DNA from: Verrucomicrobiota bacterium
GTDB taxonomy: Bacteria > Verrucomicrobiota > Verrucomicrobiia > Opitutales > T3Sed10-336
NCBI GenBank assembly: GCA_003565135.1
Contig: PXDC01000016.1
Span: 1-35,590, forward strand
Direction of reading: 5' to 3'
Length of the DNA stretch: 35,590 nucleotides
How positions within the stretch are numbered: position 1 is the stretch's first letter; every line of letters begins with the position of its first letter. The notes under the pieces are model-generated. The model made no database searches, had not been told where the DNA came from, and saw only the letters and a list, made by a program, of their open reading frames with translations. Made by a program: the position numbers and the translations under genes. Shown one piece after another: positions 2,647 to 34,260 of the stretch.

Positions 2647-2764
2647 GCGGGGGATTGGGGACGGGTGATTCGGAGTTCGTTCGGAAATCCAGAATCGTTC
2701 CCTCGCCCCTCGTCCCTCACGCCCCGTCCAACCAATCACCCGTCCCCAGTCACCCATTCACACT
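2647..2764. repeat. Degenerate heptanucleotide tandem repeat tract
   Basis: GGGGATT-GGGGACG-GGTGATT ... CCTCGCC-CCTCGTC-CCTCACG-CCCCGTC ... CCAATCA-CCCGTCC-CCAGTCA-CCCATTC. Confidence 0.65.
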
Positions 2765-17720: not shown

Positions 17721-17750
17721 GACGGGGGATTCGTGACGGGTGACCCGTTT
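17721..17750. repeat. Heptanucleotide tract
   Basis: GACGGGG-GATTCGT-GACGGGT-GACCCGT. Confidence 0.6.
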
Positions 17751-17862
17751 CAGCGGATCCCCACTCGCAACTCCCGGGAACTCCGTTTTCCGCCTTTTTC
17801 GGTCTGTCGTACCGTATCCCGACAACGGACAACCGCTCGCCCCCTGTCCCCTGACGCGGGAT

Positions 17863-18009
17863 CGGACGTTGAGCGCGGTTCCCCACACCGGCCGCTCCGT
17901 GAGCGTGGGAACGCGGTTGGCCGGGGCTCCGGGAAAGCGGTGCGGAGCACCGCACTCCAAAAGCGCTTCGCGCAACATACCCGTACCGCCCGGAGATCCC
18001 TGGAACAGG
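17863..18009 (-). repeat. Structured repeat element S, copy 3
   Basis: Reverse complement reads CCTGTTCCAGG...GGGCGGTACGGGTATGTTGCGCGAAGCGCTTTTGGAGTGCGGTGCTCCGCACCGC...CCACGCTCACGGAGCGG...CAACGTCCG, matching copies at 23235 and 24628. Confidence 0.8.
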
Positions 18010-18111
18010 AAGACCAGGAAACCCAACCACAGAACCCAACTCCCTTATTCCGTGTGCGCCATCCGCTCCGCGGGAAAAGACCGAACACAGGACGGTGCCT
18101 GAGCCCGCCGG

Positions 18112-18150
18112 ACGAATCACGAATCACCAATCCCCCATCACGAATCCCCC
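18112..18150. repeat. Heptanucleotide tract
   Basis: GAATCAC-GAATCAC-CAATCCC-CCATCAC-GAATCCC. Confidence 0.7.
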
Positions 18151-21100
18151 ACCGGTCCGAATTCGAGGTCGTCGACCCAGAGGACCTGGTCCGGTTCGCC
18201 TCCGGGGTCCATGTGGATAAAGACCTCGCAATAACCGGGAGCCATTTCCAGGTCGAGGCGGTACTCCTTCCATTCCTCGCTCGGCTCGAGGGAGACGGTG
18301 CCACCGGAGCCGCGGGCGCCGGCCACCCGGACGCGGGCGTGGGTGGCGTCGCCCCGGGCGAAAAAGCGGAGGACGTAGTCGCCGCCCCGGCTGAGCCGCA
18401 TGGGCTGGCTCCGGGCCGTGACCCGGTCCTCGGGACGCACGAAGCGCAGGGCGGATTTGCCGGTGACGGCGTCCTCCTGGCTCCATCCGGGCCAGCCGGG
18501 ATCGGGCGAACGGGAATTGTGATTCACGTGCCAGCCCCGGGGCGGGTAATCGGGAATGCCCTCTTCGAAATCACCGTTGCGCAGCAGGTTCACCACGCGG
18601 CCGGCGTAGGACTCGACCTGTTCAGCCCGGAAGCGGGGCATTTCGTCGCCGGGAACGAAGCGGAAAAACACCTCCGTCTTGTCGCGCAGGGCACCGGTCA
18701 CGGCCCCGCGGCCGCGGACACTCGCTACCGGTGTCCAGCGGTCCTGCACCAGGAGTTCGGCCCGGTCGTCGGAGCTCTCCAGGCGGTAGCGCCCGGCCGC
18801 CCGGACCTGCGTTTCCGCGTAGGCCACCCACTCGCCGTTTTCGGCCCGCAGGACGTGCAGGGGCAGGTCGTACTCGCCCTCGCCGTCCCGCACCGTCAGC
18901 ACGGCCCCGGGCGGGCTTTCGCGGGGATCGTTTCGCGGGTCGACCCAGAGCACCCCGTCGAATTCGCCGGGCCAGGCCACGACCAGTTCGCCCGCCTCCC
19001 AGGAAAACGCGATTTCCGAGGCCTCGTCCGGTCGGTGCTGGGGGGCGATGAACACCCGCGAGGGTTCCCCGCCGCTGTAGAGGCGGATTTCCTGCGCCTC
19101 CGCCCGGGAGACCCAGAAGACCGCACGGGCGTCGGCACCGCCAAAGGCCCCGTAGACGTCGGCCGGGGACTCCATGCGGAGCAGTCGCCGGTCGCCGGCG
19201 TGCAGCCGGGACCCGCCGGACACCATCCAGCGCCGCACGTCGCCGTCGCCGTCGCGGGCGGCCGAGGCGGCCACGCCGTTGCTCTGCAGCCCGTGGCCGT
19301 AGATCTCATTGCCGTCCCGCAGGTAACGGCGGAAAAGCACGGTCTCCTCGCCCTCGGGACCGTCGAACGCCACCCCGATCGTAGCCGGATTCTCCACCGT
19401 GCGCCCCTCGCCCAGCGCGTCGCCGTCGGCGGCCTCGTAGGTGTTCATGAGAGCCAGAAAACGCTGTTCCTCCGCCTTGTTCGCAGTAGTGACCCGGATG
19501 TGCCAGGGCTCGGGAAAGGCCTCGGTAAAGCGGGACCAGGCCCGGGTCTGGATGGGGTACCGGCGCTCGTTCGATTGACGGTAGTCCAGCTCGCGGGGCA
19601 GGAGGTGCCGCACCCGCAGGCGCCGGTCCTGCTGGGGCACGGTCAGGACCCGCGCGGACGAATCGATCTCGGTCTCCTGGAAGGTGTTGAGCAGCCAGGA
19701 AAACGCGCTCGGCTCCTCCGCGGCCAGTTCGTCGTACACCACGTAGACCCCGGGCCGGATGAAGAGGATGGCACGCTCGAAGCGCTTCATCGGTTCCTCG
19801 TAGGCCCGGGAGGCGTCGCCGGAGAAAAAGGTGTAGGCGGGAGAATGGAAGAACTCGGTGATCTCACCCTTGTAATCGATCCCCTTGGGCTGCCCTTCTC
19901 CGTTGATGAGGATCGAATTGTGGGTGTTGGTGGTCACGGTCCACTTCATGTGGTAATCGTCGCCGTAATACGTGTAGTACCCCGTATCGGCGGCCAGGAT
20001 TTCGCCCCCGGAGTGGATGACGAAATTGTTCTGGTCGGCGTGGGCGTGACTGTGCCCGCCCCACCAGCTGCTGCGGAAAAAGATCCGGTCGCTCAGGTGA
20101 TCGTAGAAGCGGTCGTAGGCGGCGAGCTGCCCGGTCTCCGGAAACAGTTTGGCCTGCGCGATATCGACCGGCGGCTTGGGGGTCAGCTCGGTGTCGGACA
20201 GGTACTGGAACGGGATGTGATCCGGATTGGCGAATACGGTGTCGGACCACCACTGCAGGTAGGGATCCTCGTTCATCGAGGCCATGAGATTGGAGATGTA
20301 GGCGTCGGCCGAATTCCCCCAGGGCCACAGCAGGCTGTAGATGTCGCCGCCGTGATGGTACCAGTAGTTGAGCGCCATGGCGTAGAGCCAGAACTCCCCC
20401 GAATTGCGGATGCGGGGTTTGGCGAACACGTCGATACCGGTGGCCGAACGCATGGCGGCGAGCCCCTCCAGGATCCAGCGGAACTTGTGCCCGTAGGTCT
20501 GTCCCTCGAAGTACCCGCCGTCCTCGCTCGTCCAGGCGATCCGATTGGCGTACTGGCGCACCAGGTAATCGGTCCATTCCGCCGCCGCCGGGATGTCGGT
20601 CGCCACCGCCATCACCGTGGTGAGCAGGGCGTGCATGCATTGCTGGGGATGGGAGCGCTGGTACTCGAGGTGAATCCTCACCCGGTCGCGCAGGTACTCG
20701 TAGGCGGGCTCGGCGTGATACGCGATGTGATCGAGCACCCGCGCCCGCTCCCCGGCCGAGAGGTGGTGGTAAATCCGGTCGTAGGTGAGGGCGGCGTACT
20801 TGAGTCCGTTCTCGTAGGCGTAAACCACCGTGTCGTGCTGCGCCCGGTCGTCCACGTGGTAGTCGAGACGGGCATCGGCGACAAAGAGGAGCCACTCCCG
20901 GGCGGCTTCGGCGTACTCGGGTTCACCTGAGATGAGGTAGGCGAAGGAAAGGATGTTGCCGTTGTCGGCCGCGCTGTTGAGCGCGCGGTAATCGAATCCG
21001 TCATCCCAATACGGTTCCCCGTCCACCAGCCAGATCACCTGCCGGCGGGTGGGCTGACCCTCCCGCCAGGAATTGCTGCCGGGCGTCTCGCCCTCCGGCC

Positions 21101-21710
21101 GCCGCTCGGCCAGCGCCACCCGATCGCCCGGCTTCTCCGGCGACCGGTCCAGCACCCGGCCGGCACGCCACCGCACTTCCTCCCAGGCTTCCCGGGCCGA
21201 TCCCAACCGTCGCTCGCGGAACGCCTCCAGTTCGTCCGGCGTGGTGAAAACCCGCGGGTGATCCGGCATCGAGGCCAGAATGTCGTCCGTCGGCGGCACC
21301 GGCAGGGCCACCGCCGCCTCCGTCACTTCGAAGCGCCGCGACGGTCCCGGACGGGACCGCTCGCCCTCCTCCGTGACCGCGTAGTACCGCCAGTACCAGG
21401 TGCCCTCCTCCAGCACCGCCGAGTGATTGTAGAACGGCAGGTCGATGTCCTCGACCCGGAAAACGCCATCGGAAAACGCTGCGTCCCGGGCGAACTCCAG
21501 GGTGTAGGTCGCCGCCCGGTCGTCCACCCGCCACACCATGGGCGGGGGGTTGACCGCCACCGTTTCGCCGTCGGCGGGCGCCAGCGGCGGATGAGTCGAA
21601 GGCTGCTCGGACGCGTCCACCTCAAACCCCGCGTGCACGCAGCCGGAAACCCCGATGATCCCCGCCACCAGGGCGGCTTTTATCTGCAAGTACCGTGTTC
21701 GTTTCATCAT
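18138..21710 (-). CDS. Heparinase II/III-like / DUF4962 polysaccharide lyase-type protein with C-terminal carbohydrate-binding-like module
   Basis: 1190 aa; N-term leader; PADGETVAVNPPPMVWRVDDRAATYTLEFARDAAF (DUF4962-like); SSWWGGHSHAHADQNNFVIHSGGEILAADTGYYTYYGDDYHMKWTVTTNTHNSILINGEGQ (heparinase II/III-like); C-term NLLRNGDFEEG...ALRF. Confidence 0.88.
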   Translation of the reverse strand: MMKRTRYLQIKAALVAGIIGVSGCVHAGFEVDASEQPSTHPPLAPADGETVAVNPPPMVWRVDDRAATYTLEFARDAAFSDGVFRVEDIDLPFYNHSAVLEEGTWYWRYYAVTEEGERSRPGPSRRFEVTEAAVALPVPPTDDILASMPDHPRVFTTPDELEAFRERRLGSAREAWEEVRWRAGRVLDRSPEKPGDRVALAERRPEGETPGSNSWREGQPTRRQVIWLVDGEPYWDDGFDYRALNSAADNGNILSFAYLISGEPEYAEAAREWLLFVADARLDYHVDDRAQHDTVVYAYENGLKYAALTYDRIYHHLSAGERARVLDHIAYHAEPAYEYLRDRVRIHLEYQRSHPQQCMHALLTTVMAVATDIPAAAEWTDYLVRQYANRIAWTSEDGGYFEGQTYGHKFRWILEGLAAMRSATGIDVFAKPRIRNSGEFWLYAMALNYWYHHGGDIYSLLWPWGNSADAYISNLMASMNEDPYLQWWSDTVFANPDHIPFQYLSDTELTPKPPVDIAQAKLFPETGQLAAYDRFYDHLSDRIFFRSSWWGGHSHAHADQNNFVIHSGGEILAADTGYYTYYGDDYHMKWTVTTNTHNSILINGEGQPKGIDYKGEITEFFHSPAYTFFSGDASRAYEEPMKRFERAILFIRPGVYVVYDELAAEEPSAFSWLLNTFQETEIDSSARVLTVPQQDRRLRVRHLLPRELDYRQSNERRYPIQTRAWSRFTEAFPEPWHIRVTTANKAEEQRFLALMNTYEAADGDALGEGRTVENPATIGVAFDGPEGEETVLFRRYLRDGNEIYGHGLQSNGVAASAARDGDGDVRRWMVSGGSRLHAGDRRLLRMESPADVYGAFGGADARAVFWVSRAEAQEIRLYSGGEPSRVFIAPQHRPDEASEIAFSWEAGELVVAWPGEFDGVLWVDPRNDPRESPPGAVLTVRDGEGEYDLPLHVLRAENGEWVAYAETQVRAAGRYRLESSDDRAELLVQDRWTPVASVRGRGAVTGALRDKTEVFFRFVPGDEMPRFRAEQVESYAGRVVNLLRNGDFEEGIPDYPPRGWHVNHNSRSPDPGWPGWSQEDAVTGKSALRFVRPEDRVTARSQPMRLSRGGDYVLRFFARGDATHARVRVAGARGSGGTVSLEPSEEWKEYRLDLEMAPGYCEVFIHMDPGGEPDQVLWVDDLEFGPVGDS

Positions 21711-21717
21711 ACATCCT

Positions 21718-23064
21718 TTAAAAAATGCCCCGGTCCCGCATCCGGTTGAGCCATCGGTTCAGATCCTCCTCCAGGCCGTCGATCACGGCCTGCTCGCTCA
21801 GTTCCGGGTACGCCACCGCCTGGGAAAAGCGGTTGGTGACGATGCGGTGAATCTCCATGATGCCGGGTGCGTAAAGAAGCGGGGCGGTCTGCCCCTCCTC
21901 CATGGTGTCGGAAAACCGGGCCATCGAGGCCGGCGGCCGCATGCCCAGAAACTCCTCCCCGTAGGCGATCTCCCGGTAGATCGGCTGGGTGCGCAGCTCG
22001 CGCATGTTGATACGGGTCCCCTCCGGCGAAGCGGCGAAACGAACGAACTTCCGCGCCGCTTCCTCGTGGGCGGTGTGCTCCCATACCGCCAGGGTGGCCG
22101 CGCCCATCATGGATTCGGCCGAATGCTCACCGGCGGGAAACGGAAGCACGTCCCACTCGAATTCGGTGTGGTCGCGAAAGAGCGCCGTTGACATAATGGA
22201 GGCAAAGGTCAACGCCACCCGACCGTCCCGGAAGAGTTGCGAATGCCCTTCGTCCGCCCCCACCTCCGGCGGCACGGTGTAGCCCTCCTCGTGGAAACGC
22301 CGGATAAACCGCACCGCATCCAGCGCCTCCGGCTGGTTCACGGTGACGCGGGTCGGATGGTAGGAACTGTCAAAGAGGGTCACCCCCCGCTGACGCAGGA
22401 ACACCACCGGGTGTGGCAGGGAAACCGCATAGTCGGTCGGGGCGTCCGGGTCGGCGCGACGGCGCGACAGCCGCGGCGCGATCTCCTCCACGTACTCCCA
22501 CGTCCACTCCTCGTCCGCCGGCACGGGGATGCCCGCCGCCGCCAACGCCTCCATGTTGGCGTAGGTCACCGTCCCCATTACCGCCAACGGCAGCGCGTAA
22601 ACCCGGCCGTCGCGCTCGACCGCCTTGCGCACCATCGGCATGATCTCACCGTAGTCCTCCAGCGCCTCCATTTCGTCGGTGACATCCATGAGCACGCCGC
22701 GCGAGGCCCACTCGTCGTAGTAATTCACCCCGATCATGAACACGTCCGGCGCAACCGACCCCACCATCATGGCCTGGATCTTGTTGAAGTACTGACTGTA
22801 GCCCATGACCGTGACGTCCACCCGGATATCCGGGTGCTGCGCCTCAAACGCGTCCGCCAGGGCTCGCGCCGCGCGCTCCTGTTCCGGCGTGCCCCAGCAG
22901 GCGTAACGGATGCGCTCCCGCTCCCCCGCCTCCGGCTCGGTACACCCGGCCAGGCCCAGCGCCGCCAGGCCGAAGACAGCGCCCAGCACCGCCCGCCAAA
23001 AGACCCCTCGCCCGCTACCGGGACGCGGACCGTTCACTCCGGACGGTATTCTAAACAACAACAC
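21718..23064 (-). CDS. ABC transporter extracellular solute-binding lipoprotein, family 1 (sugar)
   Basis: 448 aa; lipobox LAALGLAGCTEPEAGERERIRYACWGTPEQERAARALADAFEAQHPDIRVDVTVMGYSQYFNKIQAMMVGSVAPDVFMIGVNYYDEWASRGVLMDVT. Confidence 0.93.
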   Translation of the reverse strand: MLLFRIPSGVNGPRPGSGRGVFWRAVLGAVFGLAALGLAGCTEPEAGERERIRYACWGTPEQERAARALADAFEAQHPDIRVDVTVMGYSQYFNKIQAMMVGSVAPDVFMIGVNYYDEWASRGVLMDVTDEMEALEDYGEIMPMVRKAVERDGRVYALPLAVMGTVTYANMEALAAAGIPVPADEEWTWEYVEEIAPRLSRRRADPDAPTDYAVSLPHPVVFLRQRGVTLFDSSYHPTRVTVNQPEALDAVRFIRRFHEEGYTVPPEVGADEGHSQLFRDGRVALTFASIMSTALFRDHTEFEWDVLPFPAGEHSAESMMGAATLAVWEHTAHEEAARKFVRFAASPEGTRINMRELRTQPIYREIAYGEEFLGMRPPASMARFSDTMEEGQTAPLLYAPGIMEIHRIVTNRFSQAVAYPELSEQAVIDGLEEDLNRWLNRMRDRGIF

Positions 23065-23169
23065 GGATCGAGACCTGGTTCGGGATTCATGCCATCAACA
23101 ACCCCTCCACCTAAATCACTTCCAAACAAAATTTCTACACTAAAAATCACTCAATCCCAAAAACCGCCA

Positions 23170-23220
23170 CGGATCCGTGATCGGTGATCCGTGATTGGTG
23201 ATTGGTCACTGGTGACTCAT
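23170..23220. repeat. Heptanucleotide tract
   Basis: GATCCGT-GATCGGT-GATCCGT-GATTGGT-GATTGGT-CACTGGT-GACTCAT. Confidence 0.8.
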
Positions 23221-23234
23221 GCCGTCCAGGTACG

Positions 23235-23367
23235 CCTGTCCGTGAGGACAGGAAACCCCGGGCGGTACGGGTATTTTGCGGAAAGCGCTTTGCCGTGCGG
23301 TGCTCCGCACCGCATTCCCCCCGCTCCTCACGGAACGGCCTGCGTGGGGAAGCACTCCCAACGTCCG
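23235..23367 (+). repeat. Structured repeat element S, copy 1
   Basis: CCTGTCC-GTGA-GGACAGG hairpin, GGGCGGTACGGGTA, AAAGCGCTTT, TGCGGTGC-TCC-GCACCGCA hairpin, CTCACGGAACGGCCTGCGTGGGG, CAACGTCCG. Confidence 0.8.
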
Positions 23368-23378
23368 ATTTCCCGAAC

Positions 23379-23410
23379 CGAATCACCAATCACGGATCAC
23401 CAATCATCCG
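23379..23410. repeat. Heptanucleotide tract
   Basis: AATCACC-AATCACG-GATCACC-AATCATC. Confidence 0.7.
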
Positions 23411-23502
23411 CTAACTCTCACCGGGCGGAAACAGTTTACGGCGAACGGGGCCATTCCGGGATTGCAGTGGACCGCCTTTCGGGTAAATTAAGCGTTCTGA
23501 TT

Positions 23503-23943
23503 ATGGATGTCTGGGAGACGGTACGGGTACTGCGACGGCAGGCGTGGGTGCGCCTGGCCATGGTGGCGGCGTGCGGCCTGCTGGTGTATTTGACGGGGCG
23601 CGATTCGGGGCGGGCGGCCGATTTTGCGTTTCTGCCCGGTTGGCTCGTCGATTGGGCCGATTCCCACGACCAGGCACCTCATTTCTTCGCGTTTTTCCTC
23701 GTCTGCCTGCCGGCCTTCGCTTTCCGGTTTCCGGAGCGCGACGTCCTCCGGATCGCCGGCGCCGAAACCGAACCGCGCTCCCGTTACCAGCTTTTTTCGG
23801 CATTTTTCTTCGCCTTCCTGGCCGTCCTCCTCGAGTTCGTCCAGCGCCTGATCCCCACCCGCTCCTTCAACCCGGACGATCTCGCCGCCAACCTGCTCGG
23901 CGTTACCGCCGCCTGGTGCGTGTGGAAAATAATCCATCGCTAA
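23503..23943 (+). CDS. VanZ-like family membrane protein
   Basis: MDVWETVRVLRRQAWVRLAMVAACGLLVYLTG...DSHDQAPHFFAFFLVCLPAF...LLEFVQRLIPTRSFNPDDLAANLLGVTAAW; VanZ-like H-F and E-Q-...-R-...-D-N/D-GxN pattern. Confidence 0.8.
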   Translation: MDVWETVRVLRRQAWVRLAMVAACGLLVYLTGRDSGRAADFAFLPGWLVDWADSHDQAPHFFAFFLVCLPAFAFRFPERDVLRIAGAETEPRSRYQLFSAFFFAFLAVLLEFVQRLIPTRSFNPDDLAANLLGVTAAWCVWKIIHR

Positions 23944-24180
23944 CCCGTTCCCCGGCTGAGCCCCGGTTTACCCGGGCCCCGCCGGCCTGGCGCGGCGTGA
24001 CGGCAGGTACCGGCTGAAGCGGCGCATGACGTCCCGTTCGCACAAATCAGGGCAAATGCACAATTTACGGGTTTCCCCTATAGACCCCGAGCCATTCAGG
24101 GTATATAAAGAGTTTATCCATTCTGCTTTATCCCTCGTCCGGGAACAATCAACCCAACACCCAAACCGGAGACCCCAACC

Positions 24181-24453
24181 ATGAAATACATCCTCTCCTT
24201 CGGAGCCGCCCTCCTTATTCTGTTGGCCGCGGGCGCGGTCCAACAAACCGCCTTCAGTCAGCCCGGAAACGCGCCCGCCCCGGCGCCGGGATTCGCCCAG
24301 GGTAACGCCGTCGGTCCCCCCGACGCCTTCGCCCCGCCCCGCACCGACAACCCCCGGGCCAATGAACGCAGTCGTCCCGGCGGCCCCCGTGTCGGCGACG
24401 GCCAGCAAATGATCGTTATCCCCGGCCACGGCGTCGTCATCTCGCCCAGCTGA
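24181..24453 (+). CDS. Small secreted Pro/Gly-rich protein of unknown function
   Basis: 90 aa with clear signal peptide MKYILSFGAALLILLAAGAVQQTAFSQ; low-complexity remainder. Confidence 0.6.
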   Translation: MKYILSFGAALLILLAAGAVQQTAFSQPGNAPAPAPGFAQGNAVGPPDAFAPPRTDNPRANERSRPGGPRVGDGQQMIVIPGHGVVISPS

Positions 24454-24581
24454 TCGGAACGAATCAGGATTTTGTCGCCGGCGATCGTCCGCGGAGGCGA
24501 CCGGGCTTAACCGTGAATCCAGACGCCGCTACCGCCCCCCGGGAACTCTCTTCTCCGGGCTGATTGGCATCAATCCTGTTT

Positions 24582-24611
24582 TGGGGATTGGTGATTCGTG
24601 ACTCGTTATTG
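24582..24611. repeat. Heptanucleotide tract
   Basis: GGGGATT-GGTGATT-CGTGACT-CGTTATT. Confidence 0.75.
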
Positions 24612-24627
24612 TCAGCGCCCACGACGA

Positions 24628-24790
24628 CCTGTCCGTGAGGACGGGGAACCCCGAGCGGTACGGGTAATTCGCGCGAAGCGCTTTCGGAGTGCGGTGCTTT
24701 GCACCAGCTATTCCCCGAACCGCAGCCAACCGGCGTTCCCACACTCACGGAGCGGCTTTCGTGGGAAATCAATCCCAGCCTCTAGTCCAC
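24628..24790 (+). repeat. Structured repeat element S, copy 2
   Basis: CCTGTCCGTGAGGACGGGGAACCCCGAGCGGTACGGGTAATTCGCGCGAAGCGCTTTCGGAGTGCGGTGCTTTGCACCAGC...CCACACTCACGGAGCGGCTTTCGTGGGAA. Confidence 0.8.
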
Positions 24791-24834: not shown

Positions 24835-25698
24835 CTACCGGCGGCGACGACGGAGCAGCACCACGGCACCGAGGACACTGGCGCCGAAGAGCAGCGCGTA
24901 TGTGGACGGTTCGGGAATCACGGTACCGCCCAAGTCCGGACCCACCAGACGGCCGAAGGCCACCGTGTTGGTATTGGTGGTATTGGCGTTACCCCAGGCA
25001 AAAAGCGCGAAGGTGACCTCGGTACCTGCCGCCATCTCCTGCAGATCCGAAAACGCGCTCAAGTCGAATGTCGGCATGGGATTGCCGGGATCCGTCGTAT
25101 TCCCACTCTGACCGGCAAGATCGGGAGGAAGCTCGAAAGCGCCCGGATCATTGGGATCGGGTACGCCGAACTTCATGTATTCTTCCGGATTGAACGAAGT
25201 ATCGGTGTTGGTGCCGGACGAACGCCCCCGATAGGTAAAGTCCACCACCGTGGTCCCGGCCGTGGCGAAGCCGTCGAGACTGTACTGAAGCTCGAAAAAC
25301 ATGGGGCCGTTAAGCGCCGAACGCCGCAGAGAAATGTCGAGGGTCGACAGGGACGCCGTGTAACCGGGAAGTACGGAAACGTTCAGGCCGATCCATTCAC
25401 CGTTGGCAATGGCGATATCCCTGCTCGGAAGCGGCGAATCGCCGCCGTCGCCCACATGCCAGTTATTGGCGCTGAAGCCGTTGGTGAGGTTGGTGTTGTC
25501 GACACCCGGCCCGCGCAAAAGGCCGTCGGAGGCCAACCCCTCGGCAATCGTCGTCGGCGCCCGCGTAGCCAAAGGCTCATTCGGAATCCCCGAAAGATCG
25601 AAATTCATAATCGATTGTCCGTGCACATGCGCACCGGTCGCCGCTACCAGCGCACCGAGGGCAAAAACCGAACCAAAGTTTTTCGAAACGGAAGTCAT
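24835..25698 (-). CDS. PEP-CTERM sorting-domain protein
   Basis: Start MTSVSKNFGSVFALGALVAATGAHVHGQS at 25698; C-term VIPEPSTYALLFGASVLGAVVLLRRRRR. ORF track start 26091 runs through a MITE-like repeat and is unlikely. Confidence 0.9.
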   Translation of the reverse strand: MTSVSKNFGSVFALGALVAATGAHVHGQSIMNFDLSGIPNEPLATRAPTTIAEGLASDGLLRGPGVDNTNLTNGFSANNWHVGDGGDSPLPSRDIAIANGEWIGLNVSVLPGYTASLSTLDISLRRSALNGPMFFELQYSLDGFATAGTTVVDFTYRGRSSGTNTDTSFNPEEYMKFGVPDPNDPGAFELPPDLAGQSGNTTDPGNPMPTFDLSAFSDLQEMAAGTEVTFALFAWGNANTTNTNTVAFGRLVGPDLGGTVIPEPSTYALLFGASVLGAVVLLRRRRR

Positions 25699-25878: not shown

Positions 25879-26028
25879 TATACTCCCCGTCGCCACGTTT
25901 TCGGATTTCTCCGTAGCGAGGGGGTTTATCCACCGATTCTCCGGGTCCCCGGATCTCCCGGGATAAACCCGGTCGCCACAAAAACGGGAGTGCCGCTGTT
26001 TGCGAAAAACTCGATGACGGCAAGTATA
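25879..26028. mobile_element. MITE-like element M, copy 2
   Basis: TIRs TATACTCCCCGTCGCC / TATACTTGCCGTCATC; internal arms GGGTTTATCC...GGATAAACCC-like; strongly similar to 1128-1279. Confidence 0.8.
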
Positions 26029-26661: not shown

Positions 26662-26774
26662 GGAGGCGTTGGGGATGGGTGATCGGTAGATTCGTTCCGC
26701 ACACAGTCAGCACCGACAACGGAAAACCTTCCGCTCTGTCGATTTTGGCAAAATCATTTTTTGGAGGTAGTGAC

Positions 26775-26803
26775 GGATCTCCCGGAATAAACCCGGTCGC
26801 TAC
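26775..26803. repeat. Fragment of element M (right inner arm)
   Basis: GGATCTCCCGGAATAAACCCGGTCGCTAC versus GGATCTCCCGGGATAAACCCGGTCGCCAC in copy 2. Confidence 0.7.
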
Positions 26804-26817
26804 AGTGTTAGGTTAGG

Positions 26818-26886
26818 TACTTGTTCGTTACCGACAACCGACAACCTCCCCGCCCCACCGAATAACCCATCACGAGTCACCCATTT
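26818..26886. repeat. Degenerate heptanucleotide tract
   Basis: CCGACAA-CCGACAA ... AACCCAT-CACGAGT-CACCCAT. Confidence 0.6.
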
Positions 26887-30090: not shown

Positions 30091-30181
30091 GTCCCCTGCC
30101 CCCTGCCTCCTGTCCCCTGTCCCCTGCCCCCTGCCCCCTGCCTCCTGTCTCCTGTCCCCTGCCTCCTGCCTCCTGCCTCCT
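30091..30181. repeat. Regular heptanucleotide tandem array, 13 units of G(T/C)C(C/T)CCT
   Basis: GTCCCCT GCCCCCT GCCTCCT GTCCCCT GTCCCCT GCCCCCT GCCCCCT GCCTCCT GTCTCCT GTCCCCT GCCTCCT GCCTCCT GCCTCCT; 13 x 7 = 91 bp without indels. Confidence 0.97.
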
Positions 30182-34101: not shown

Positions 34102-34230
34102 CTCGTGAATCGTAACCCGTAATTCGTTCGCCGCACTGTCGCACCGACAACCGACAACGGACACCCAACAATTGTCGTGACGGTTGCCGGGTGACTGGGG
34201 ATTGATTGGGGATTCGTGCCCCCGCGCAGG
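34086..34230. repeat. Degenerate heptanucleotide tract
   Basis: GATGGGT-AACTCGT-GAATCGT-AACCCGT-AATTCGT ... ACCGACA-ACCGACA-ACGGACA-CCCAACA ... GGGGATTGATTGGGGATTCGTG. Confidence 0.7.
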
Positions 34231-34260
34231 CCTGTCCGTGAGGACCGGGAACCAACGTCC
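34231..34260 (+). repeat. Structured repeat element S, internally deleted derivative (copy 4)
   Basis: CCTGTCCGTGAGGACCGGGAACC joined directly to AACGTCC, i.e. both ends of S without its middle. Confidence 0.6.

Follow-up and report, generated by a model that had tools for sequence, protein, structure and literature searches.

A dispersed multi-hairpin repeat in a verrucomicrobial genome, very likely a hybrid REPIN/BIME-type element

We analyzed a stretch of 35,590 nucleotides from a Verrucomicrobiota bacterium (contig PXDC01000016.1; hereafter the window) for a repeat, element S, that an earlier note, made from the sequence alone, had described as a non-coding, dispersed multi-hairpin element in three copies. 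BLAST searches and reading of the sequence bore out the three copies with their positions and strands, as well as the shared layout, the order of hairpins being identical in all of them. With copy 1 as the query, copy 2 was recovered at 73% identity (E 5e-18) and copy 3 at 85% (E 4e-27). The element is non-coding, and each copy occupies an intergenic region, the flanking genes being arranged in tandem, divergently, or convergently. As detailed below, S is an inverted doublet of one palindromic unit, module B (stem type TG/CA on the left and GC/GC on the right), enclosing a second unit, module A, in the segment between the two. Both modules are repetitive extragenic palindromes (REPs), and A is the cognate of a clade of REP-associated tyrosine transposases (RAYTs). 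The parts of S in the window are as follows.

17863-18009, minus strand: S copy 1, with a degenerate left B (CCTG-TTC-CAGG), the spacer GGCGGTACGGGTA, the small hairpin GCGCGAAGCGC, the REP-A hairpin, and a right inverted B of the GC stem type; fold z -1.05, decayed
17934-17958, minus strand: REP-A unit GGAGTGCGGTGCTCCGCACCGCTTT of copy 1, cognate of the RAYT clade; 1585-1609 of locus L001
23235-23367, plus strand: S copy 2, flanked by two divergently oriented genes, one for a solute-binding protein and one for a VanZ-like protein; fold z -2.95
23230-23253, plus strand: REP-B at the left end of copy 2, of the TG/CA stem type and with a decayed tag, GTAC
23292-23316, plus strand: REP-A hairpin of copy 2, GCCGTGCGGTGCTCCGCACCGCATT; 149-173 of locus L003
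23321-23345, minus strand: inverted REP-B at the right end of copy 2, of the GC stem type and with the tag GCAG
24628-24790, plus strand: S copy 3, between the convergent open reading frame 24181-24453 (plus) and a PEP-CTERM gene ending at 24835 (minus); fold z -2.88 for 24633-24780
24686-24712, plus strand: REP-A hairpin of copy 3, GGAGTGCGGTGCTTTGCACCAGCTATT, slightly decayed
34225-34248, plus strand: solo REP-B, tag GCAG, outside any S copy

Some details of the earlier description required correction. The hairpin CCTG-TTC-CAGG, which had been assigned to copy 3 and taken as a sign that structure is retained, is in fact in copy 1 (17863-18009) and more likely reflects a decaying hairpin than compensation; retention of structure is supported instead by the covarying B stems of other copies. 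The sequences quoted for the hairpins were a blend of the copies: GCGCGAAGCGC is found in copies 1 and 3, with GCGGAAAGCGC in copy 2, AACGTCCG is found in copies 1 and 2 only, and the exact string CCACGCTCACGGAGCGGCCTGCGTGG is in no copy. A search of the window against Rfam gave no family above its gathering score.

We then examined the distribution of S in the window's own genome (G000, a 4.23-Mb draft that is 82% complete) and in three relatives that carry module B (G001 to G003). The search for further copies that had been proposed yielded, far beyond chance, four more composite copies, one each on contigs C235, C241, C349, and C470 of G000, for a total of seven with those in the window, as well as several solo inner hairpins. 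All seven composites share the order B-spacer-C-A-B′, where C is the small hairpin GCGCGAAGCGC, although only the left end is intact in the C349 copy. Their consensus is CCACGTAGGCCTGTCCGTGAGGACAGGGAACCCCG.GCGGTACGGGTATTT.GCGCGAAGCGCTTT.GGAGTGCGGTGCTCCGCACCGCTTTCCCCGAGCCC..GCCAACCGC..TTCCCGCTCCTCACGGAGCGGCCT.CGTGGG. The left end of S and the reverse complement of its right end are units of the same kind, module B, and the middle is module A, GGAGTGCGG...CCGCTTT, with the small hairpin located 5′ of it. S measures 114 to 159 nt, compared to mostly 66 to 96 nt for B doublets without A in the lineage. The C235 copy is the least decayed and has GTAG at both ends; as single-stranded DNA it folds into one long hairpin of the kind formed by REPINs, the hairpin-forming REP doublets, built from the two B arms and carrying A on top (z -6.3). 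By contrast, the intact GTAG tag is absent from all three window copies, which have GTAC, GCAG, or no tag, and these copies are therefore probably fossils that are no longer mobile. No composite S was found outside G000, and in the relatives the S probe matched A-type cores only.

Module B has the sequence GTAGGCC-TGTCC-GTGA-GGACA-GGG or, more generally, GTAGGCC, a 5-nt arm, a GTGA or GTAA loop, the complementary arm, and GGG. Its structure and covariation were assessed by pattern searches with a reversed-pattern control and by pair counts. The strict pattern gave 24, 40, 30, and 34 sites in G000 to G003, where the control gave 0, and the relaxed pattern (up to 3 mismatches) gave 43, 82, 49, and 56 matches compared to 9, 14, 16, and 7 with the control; in the other 49 genomes of the same set, the relaxed pattern gave nothing clearly above the control. 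Among 373 genomes of the order, the strict pattern matched six, namely G000 to G003 and a further two, each of which had a single site, with one mismatch. G000 was the sole match among 289 genomes spread over the phylum, a sample that did not include G001 to G003, and no exact match to B was found in IMG/VR viral contigs.

We next collected B 24-mers by tag, length of the 5′ arm, and loop, leaving the 3′ arm free. Six or seven of the seven stem positions were paired in 42 of 48 distinct 24-mers, compared to 0 of 5 in the reversed control. In 43 of these 24-mers, 93.4% of the stem cells were paired (43 to 55% in slid controls), double changes occupied 40 cells against a shuffled mean of 13.9, with changes on both sides at five of the seven pairs, and the covariation score was 0.423 compared to 0.150 in shuffles, none of 500 reaching the observed value. 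The sites collected carry a tag, G[T/C]AG and mostly GTAG, immediately 5′ of the stem.

B units occur alone, in direct tandem arrays (the tightest spacing being about 30 to 36 nt), and as inverted doublets. Inverted neighbors differed in stem type in all 44 pairs, mostly TG/CA with GC/GC, whereas direct neighbors had the same stem type in 42 of 46; as one array may supply more than one pair, the counts are not entirely independent of each other. Convergent doublets numbered 26 and spanned 55 to 169 nt. In one G000 locus (L114, contig C154, 2703-3148), B units form a regular array of alternating orientation with a period of 141 nt, a modular bacterial interspersed mosaic element (BIME). Module B thus has a tag at the foot of a palindrome, compensatory change in the stem, and dispersal in 24 to 40 strict or 43 to 82 relaxed copies per genome, as expected of a REP; two inverted REPs as the repeated unit, the hallmark of REPINs and BIMEs, are found in the B doublets and in the intact S fold.

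Module A consists of the tag GGAGT and the palindrome GCGG...CCGC. In the relative G002, a Y1 transposase gene has module A on both flanks. Its product matches the NCBIfam family NF047646 (REP_Tyr_transpos) with 82.3 bits, against a cut-off of 80, and resembles the solved TnpArep structure 4er8. This A-type RAYT has 184 amino acids and the motifs NHYH, WH, and Y...NP, its sequence showing NHYH and YVIQNP. We then counted the motif in 48 fetched loci with RAYT homologues, whose records are labeled Verrucomicrobia, Kiritimatiellae, Acidobacteria, Planctomycetota, Chloroflexi, Fimbriimonadaceae, and others (a large share being metagenome-assembled genomes, so that the taxon labels may be off). 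The sequence GGAGTGCGG occurred 109 times in the 44.8 kb lying within 500 bp of the RAYT genes, compared to 12 times in the remaining 224.6 kb (odds ratio, 46), and 38 of the 48 loci had at least one occurrence within 500 bp of the gene. Beyond GCGG/CCGC, the A stems vary by species yet tend to remain complementary: at three positions 24 of 57 stems were paired, compared to 9.0 in shuffles, and at 2 nt 39 of 58 were paired, compared to 21.9. Because GGAGTGCGG is concentrated beside the genes of this clade and the stems tend to stay complementary, module A is the REP of one RAYT clade. The covariation check that had been proposed for S thus came out in favor of structure for both modules, pair counts for B and A exceeding shuffled controls. 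A link to RAYTs had also been suggested for testing, and it was found for the inner hairpin A, but no RAYT was found beside B in the four draft genomes, and none of the A type in the draft of G000.

The records in which GGAGT-tagged REPs accompany this single clade of RAYTs (L134 to L181) are assigned to many phyla, and this span suggests that the A-type RAYT/REP pair has spread widely by horizontal transfer. We found no description of a GGAGT REP tag in the text of the articles consulted; a search of article text for GGAGTGCGG brought up unrelated papers among the matches listed.

Taken together, these data make it very likely that S is a hybrid element of the REPIN/BIME type, a non-autonomous single-stranded DNA mini-transposon or the decayed remains of one. 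S had been said to match no recognized repeat family; while no Rfam family covers it, GTAG-tagged REPs make up its ends and the repeat that flanks a RAYT clade makes up its core, which places it among the known kinds of repeat. TnpAREP proteins of Escherichia coli and other bacteria bind single-stranded REPs and cleave near the tetranucleotide, with a dependence on it that varies by system (PMC8266576); the unit that moves is believed to be the REP doublet (PMC3116915). By analogy, the B arms and the A hairpin of S would fold on single-stranded DNA, and Y1/HUH transposases (RAYT/TnpAREP) acting in trans would recognize tag and hairpin, cleave, and rejoin, thereby copying REPs and doublets into new intergenic sites. 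B doublets would be copied by a B-specific RAYT and A by an A-type RAYT. Module A probably entered a B doublet once, with the composite then being copied and spread in the G000 lineage.

Several observations weigh against this interpretation. The S copies are 73 to 89% alike to copy 1 by BLAST and partly decayed, and it is from the order of the parts that we infer that S was copied as a unit; the enzyme is assigned by analogy. In G000 to G003, all of which are drafts, none of the Y1 transposase genes found had B at a distance of up to about 1.5 kb; this holds for each of the eight Y1 genes of G000. In the relatives, the RAYT gene on G002 contig C155 and the fragments examined are also without module B. 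An A-type RAYT was not found in G000, which is 82% complete. Finally, G002 offered no clean empty site: next to its heparinase, solute-binding, and VanZ-like orthologues there is no S, but synteny is broken on their other side. With respect to the missing B transposase, several B arrays end at contig edges (e.g., G000 C394, G002 C140, and G002 C85), places where repeats break assemblies, and the genome bins may therefore lack the gene. One RAYT gene in G003 (L211, contig C47) is flanked by a different repeat, GTGGCGAGCGACTTTATGTCG, and not by B.

The B family resembles the GTAG REPs, REPINs, and BIMEs described previously (PMC2817692, PMC3116915, PMC3733652) in having GTAG by the palindrome, intergenic dispersal, tandem arrays, and heterotypic partners, and its doublets of 66 to 96 nt compare with about 70 nt for known REP doublets. 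The heterotypic rule has a known parallel: in E. coli, two unlike units, Y and Z2, mark off the rayt gene and are also the building blocks of BIMEs (PMC2817692). Unlike the known systems, B is a new sequence family limited to four related genomes, no cognate RAYT was found in those drafts, and S carries a second REP family in the inter-REP segment. Two unrelated palindrome families in one repeated unit are also seen in Stenotrophomonas, whose hybrid BIMEs combine REPs of two different RAYTs (PMC2817692), and in Pseudomonas, where GTAG-1 units are joined to unrelated stem-loops (PMC3733652); S differs from these composites in that the second palindrome is nested in an inverted doublet and its RAYT clade can be named. 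The A-type RAYT comes near TnpA(Y1) subclass 2.8 (NHYH, W[YH], YIHYNP, 199 amino acids, reported with GT[AG]G-tagged long REPs; PMC6006769), an assignment made by motif only, and differs from it in the GGAGT tag. Hybrid BIMEs, GTAG REPs, and GTAG units joined to unrelated stem-loops were therefore already known. What is new is module B as a family, module A with its GGAGT tag and its clade of RAYTs, the nesting of A in a B doublet, and, for this lineage, the strictness with which inverted partners are heterotypic. These findings extend RAYT/REP biology to an uncultured verrucomicrobial lineage and add GGAGT as a REP tag that goes with a RAYT clade of several phyla, and the heterotypic rule for inverted pairs bears on how RAYTs distinguish the two ends of a doublet.

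The S copies are accompanied by tracts of a degenerate heptamer, (GATTSGT)n, which in the window flank S as follows.

17721-17748, plus strand: tract left of S copy 1
18105-18153, minus strand: tract right of S copy 1, on the opposite strand
23172-23220, plus strand: tract left of S copy 2
23378-23405, minus strand: tract right of S copy 2, on the opposite strand, in inverted pair I8
24579-24613, plus strand: tract left of S copy 3

Framing by heptamers, which the earlier note had described on both sides of copies 1 and 3 and on at least one side of copy 2, is real but does not define the element. It is copies 1 and 2 that have tracts on both sides, and copy 3 has a clear one on the left only; across all seven S copies, a tract stands on at least one side in each and on both sides in five, often at a gap of 0 to 38 nt. 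We considered whether the true mobile unit is tract, S, and inverted tract together, with the REPs as passengers collecting inside. Besides the constant presence of tracts beside S, it would fit this idea that opposite-strand neighbors within 450 nt of each other face inwards in 12 of 12 cases and never outwards. However, most B sites outside S are without tracts (present at two of seven examined), and the tracts, with 129 and 140 pattern matches in G000 and G002 (control, 0), are nearly absent from G001 and G003, both of which carry B; the tracts are therefore independent of B and do not define S. Other REP families (window 26667-26885; L317; L318) are framed by tracts too, as are inserts without a recognizable REP (L316 and L319), and the tracts differ in length and sequence between sites. 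A passenger role for the REPs is thus very unlikely.

Had S simply inserted into a tract, both flanks would lie on the same strand, so this does not explain the inverted framing. Inward-facing tracts might frame REP-type elements or be the places where these land, the paired opposite tracts forming a long hairpin that exposes single-stranded DNA for REPs placed by Y1 enzymes; frame and REP would then evolve together as a layered mobile system of a kind not yet described, an idea that we regard as unlikely. Inward-facing pairs of degenerate heptamers surround varied inserts at window positions 2653-2751, 17721-18153, 23172-23405, and 26667-26885 and in L316 to L320. A further GTAG REP family, GTAGGAGCGGGTTTACCCCGCGAT, which is similar to Pseudomonas REPs, occurs in G002 (L109, L317, and L318) and lies inside heptamer frames in L317 and L318. 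At window positions 30093-30181, shortly after a GATTSGT tract, a heptamer variant, CCCCTGC, is repeated 12.7 times in tandem. The literature that was searched held nothing on cyanobacterial heptamer repeats.

The strong stem covariation and the GNRA-type loops (GTGA/GTAA) would also be expected of a structured non-coding RNA or 3′ untranslated region element with a cellular function, such as a terminator, mRNA stabilizer, or small RNA, whose dispersal is secondary, and REPs in general can act in mRNA (PMC3733652). Against this, S matches no Rfam family, its copies are partly decayed and hold no fixed position relative to genes, being found in tandem, divergent, and convergent intergenic regions, and tandem arrays and doublets such as those of B are typical of REPs; we consider a primary RNA function very improbable. 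That S is a miniature inverted-repeat transposable element, an internally deleted derivative of a DDE-type insertion sequence with terminal inverted repeats and target duplications, is the most improbable reading: its inverted ends of about 24 nt, dispersal, and lack of coding would fit, but the ends are self-complementary GTAG-tagged hairpins found also solo, in tandem, and in doublets, no insertion sequence with such ends was seen in the fetched loci, and the core belongs to Y1 transposases.

Other repeats are found at or near Y1 genes of G000. Three genes (L047, L062, and L063, on contigs C229, C524, and C127) have inverted ends of the GGGGTCAG type, which are unrelated to S, and fit the TIRYT class, the TIRYT/TIRtrons having GGGGWSAS ends (PMC3733652). 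Another dispersed repeat, a GTGG/GTAG-tagged palindrome with the core GT[AG]GCGACCGGGTTTATCCCGGGAGATC, is present in the window at 1130-1277, 25880-26027, and 26774-26804 and in G002 with more than 15 matches of about 90 to 150 nt at 87 to 94% identity. It lies near two Y1 genes of G000, L066 and L067, in the latter case about 80 nt past the stop codon, and is therefore probably the REP of the Y1 class of 330 amino acids.

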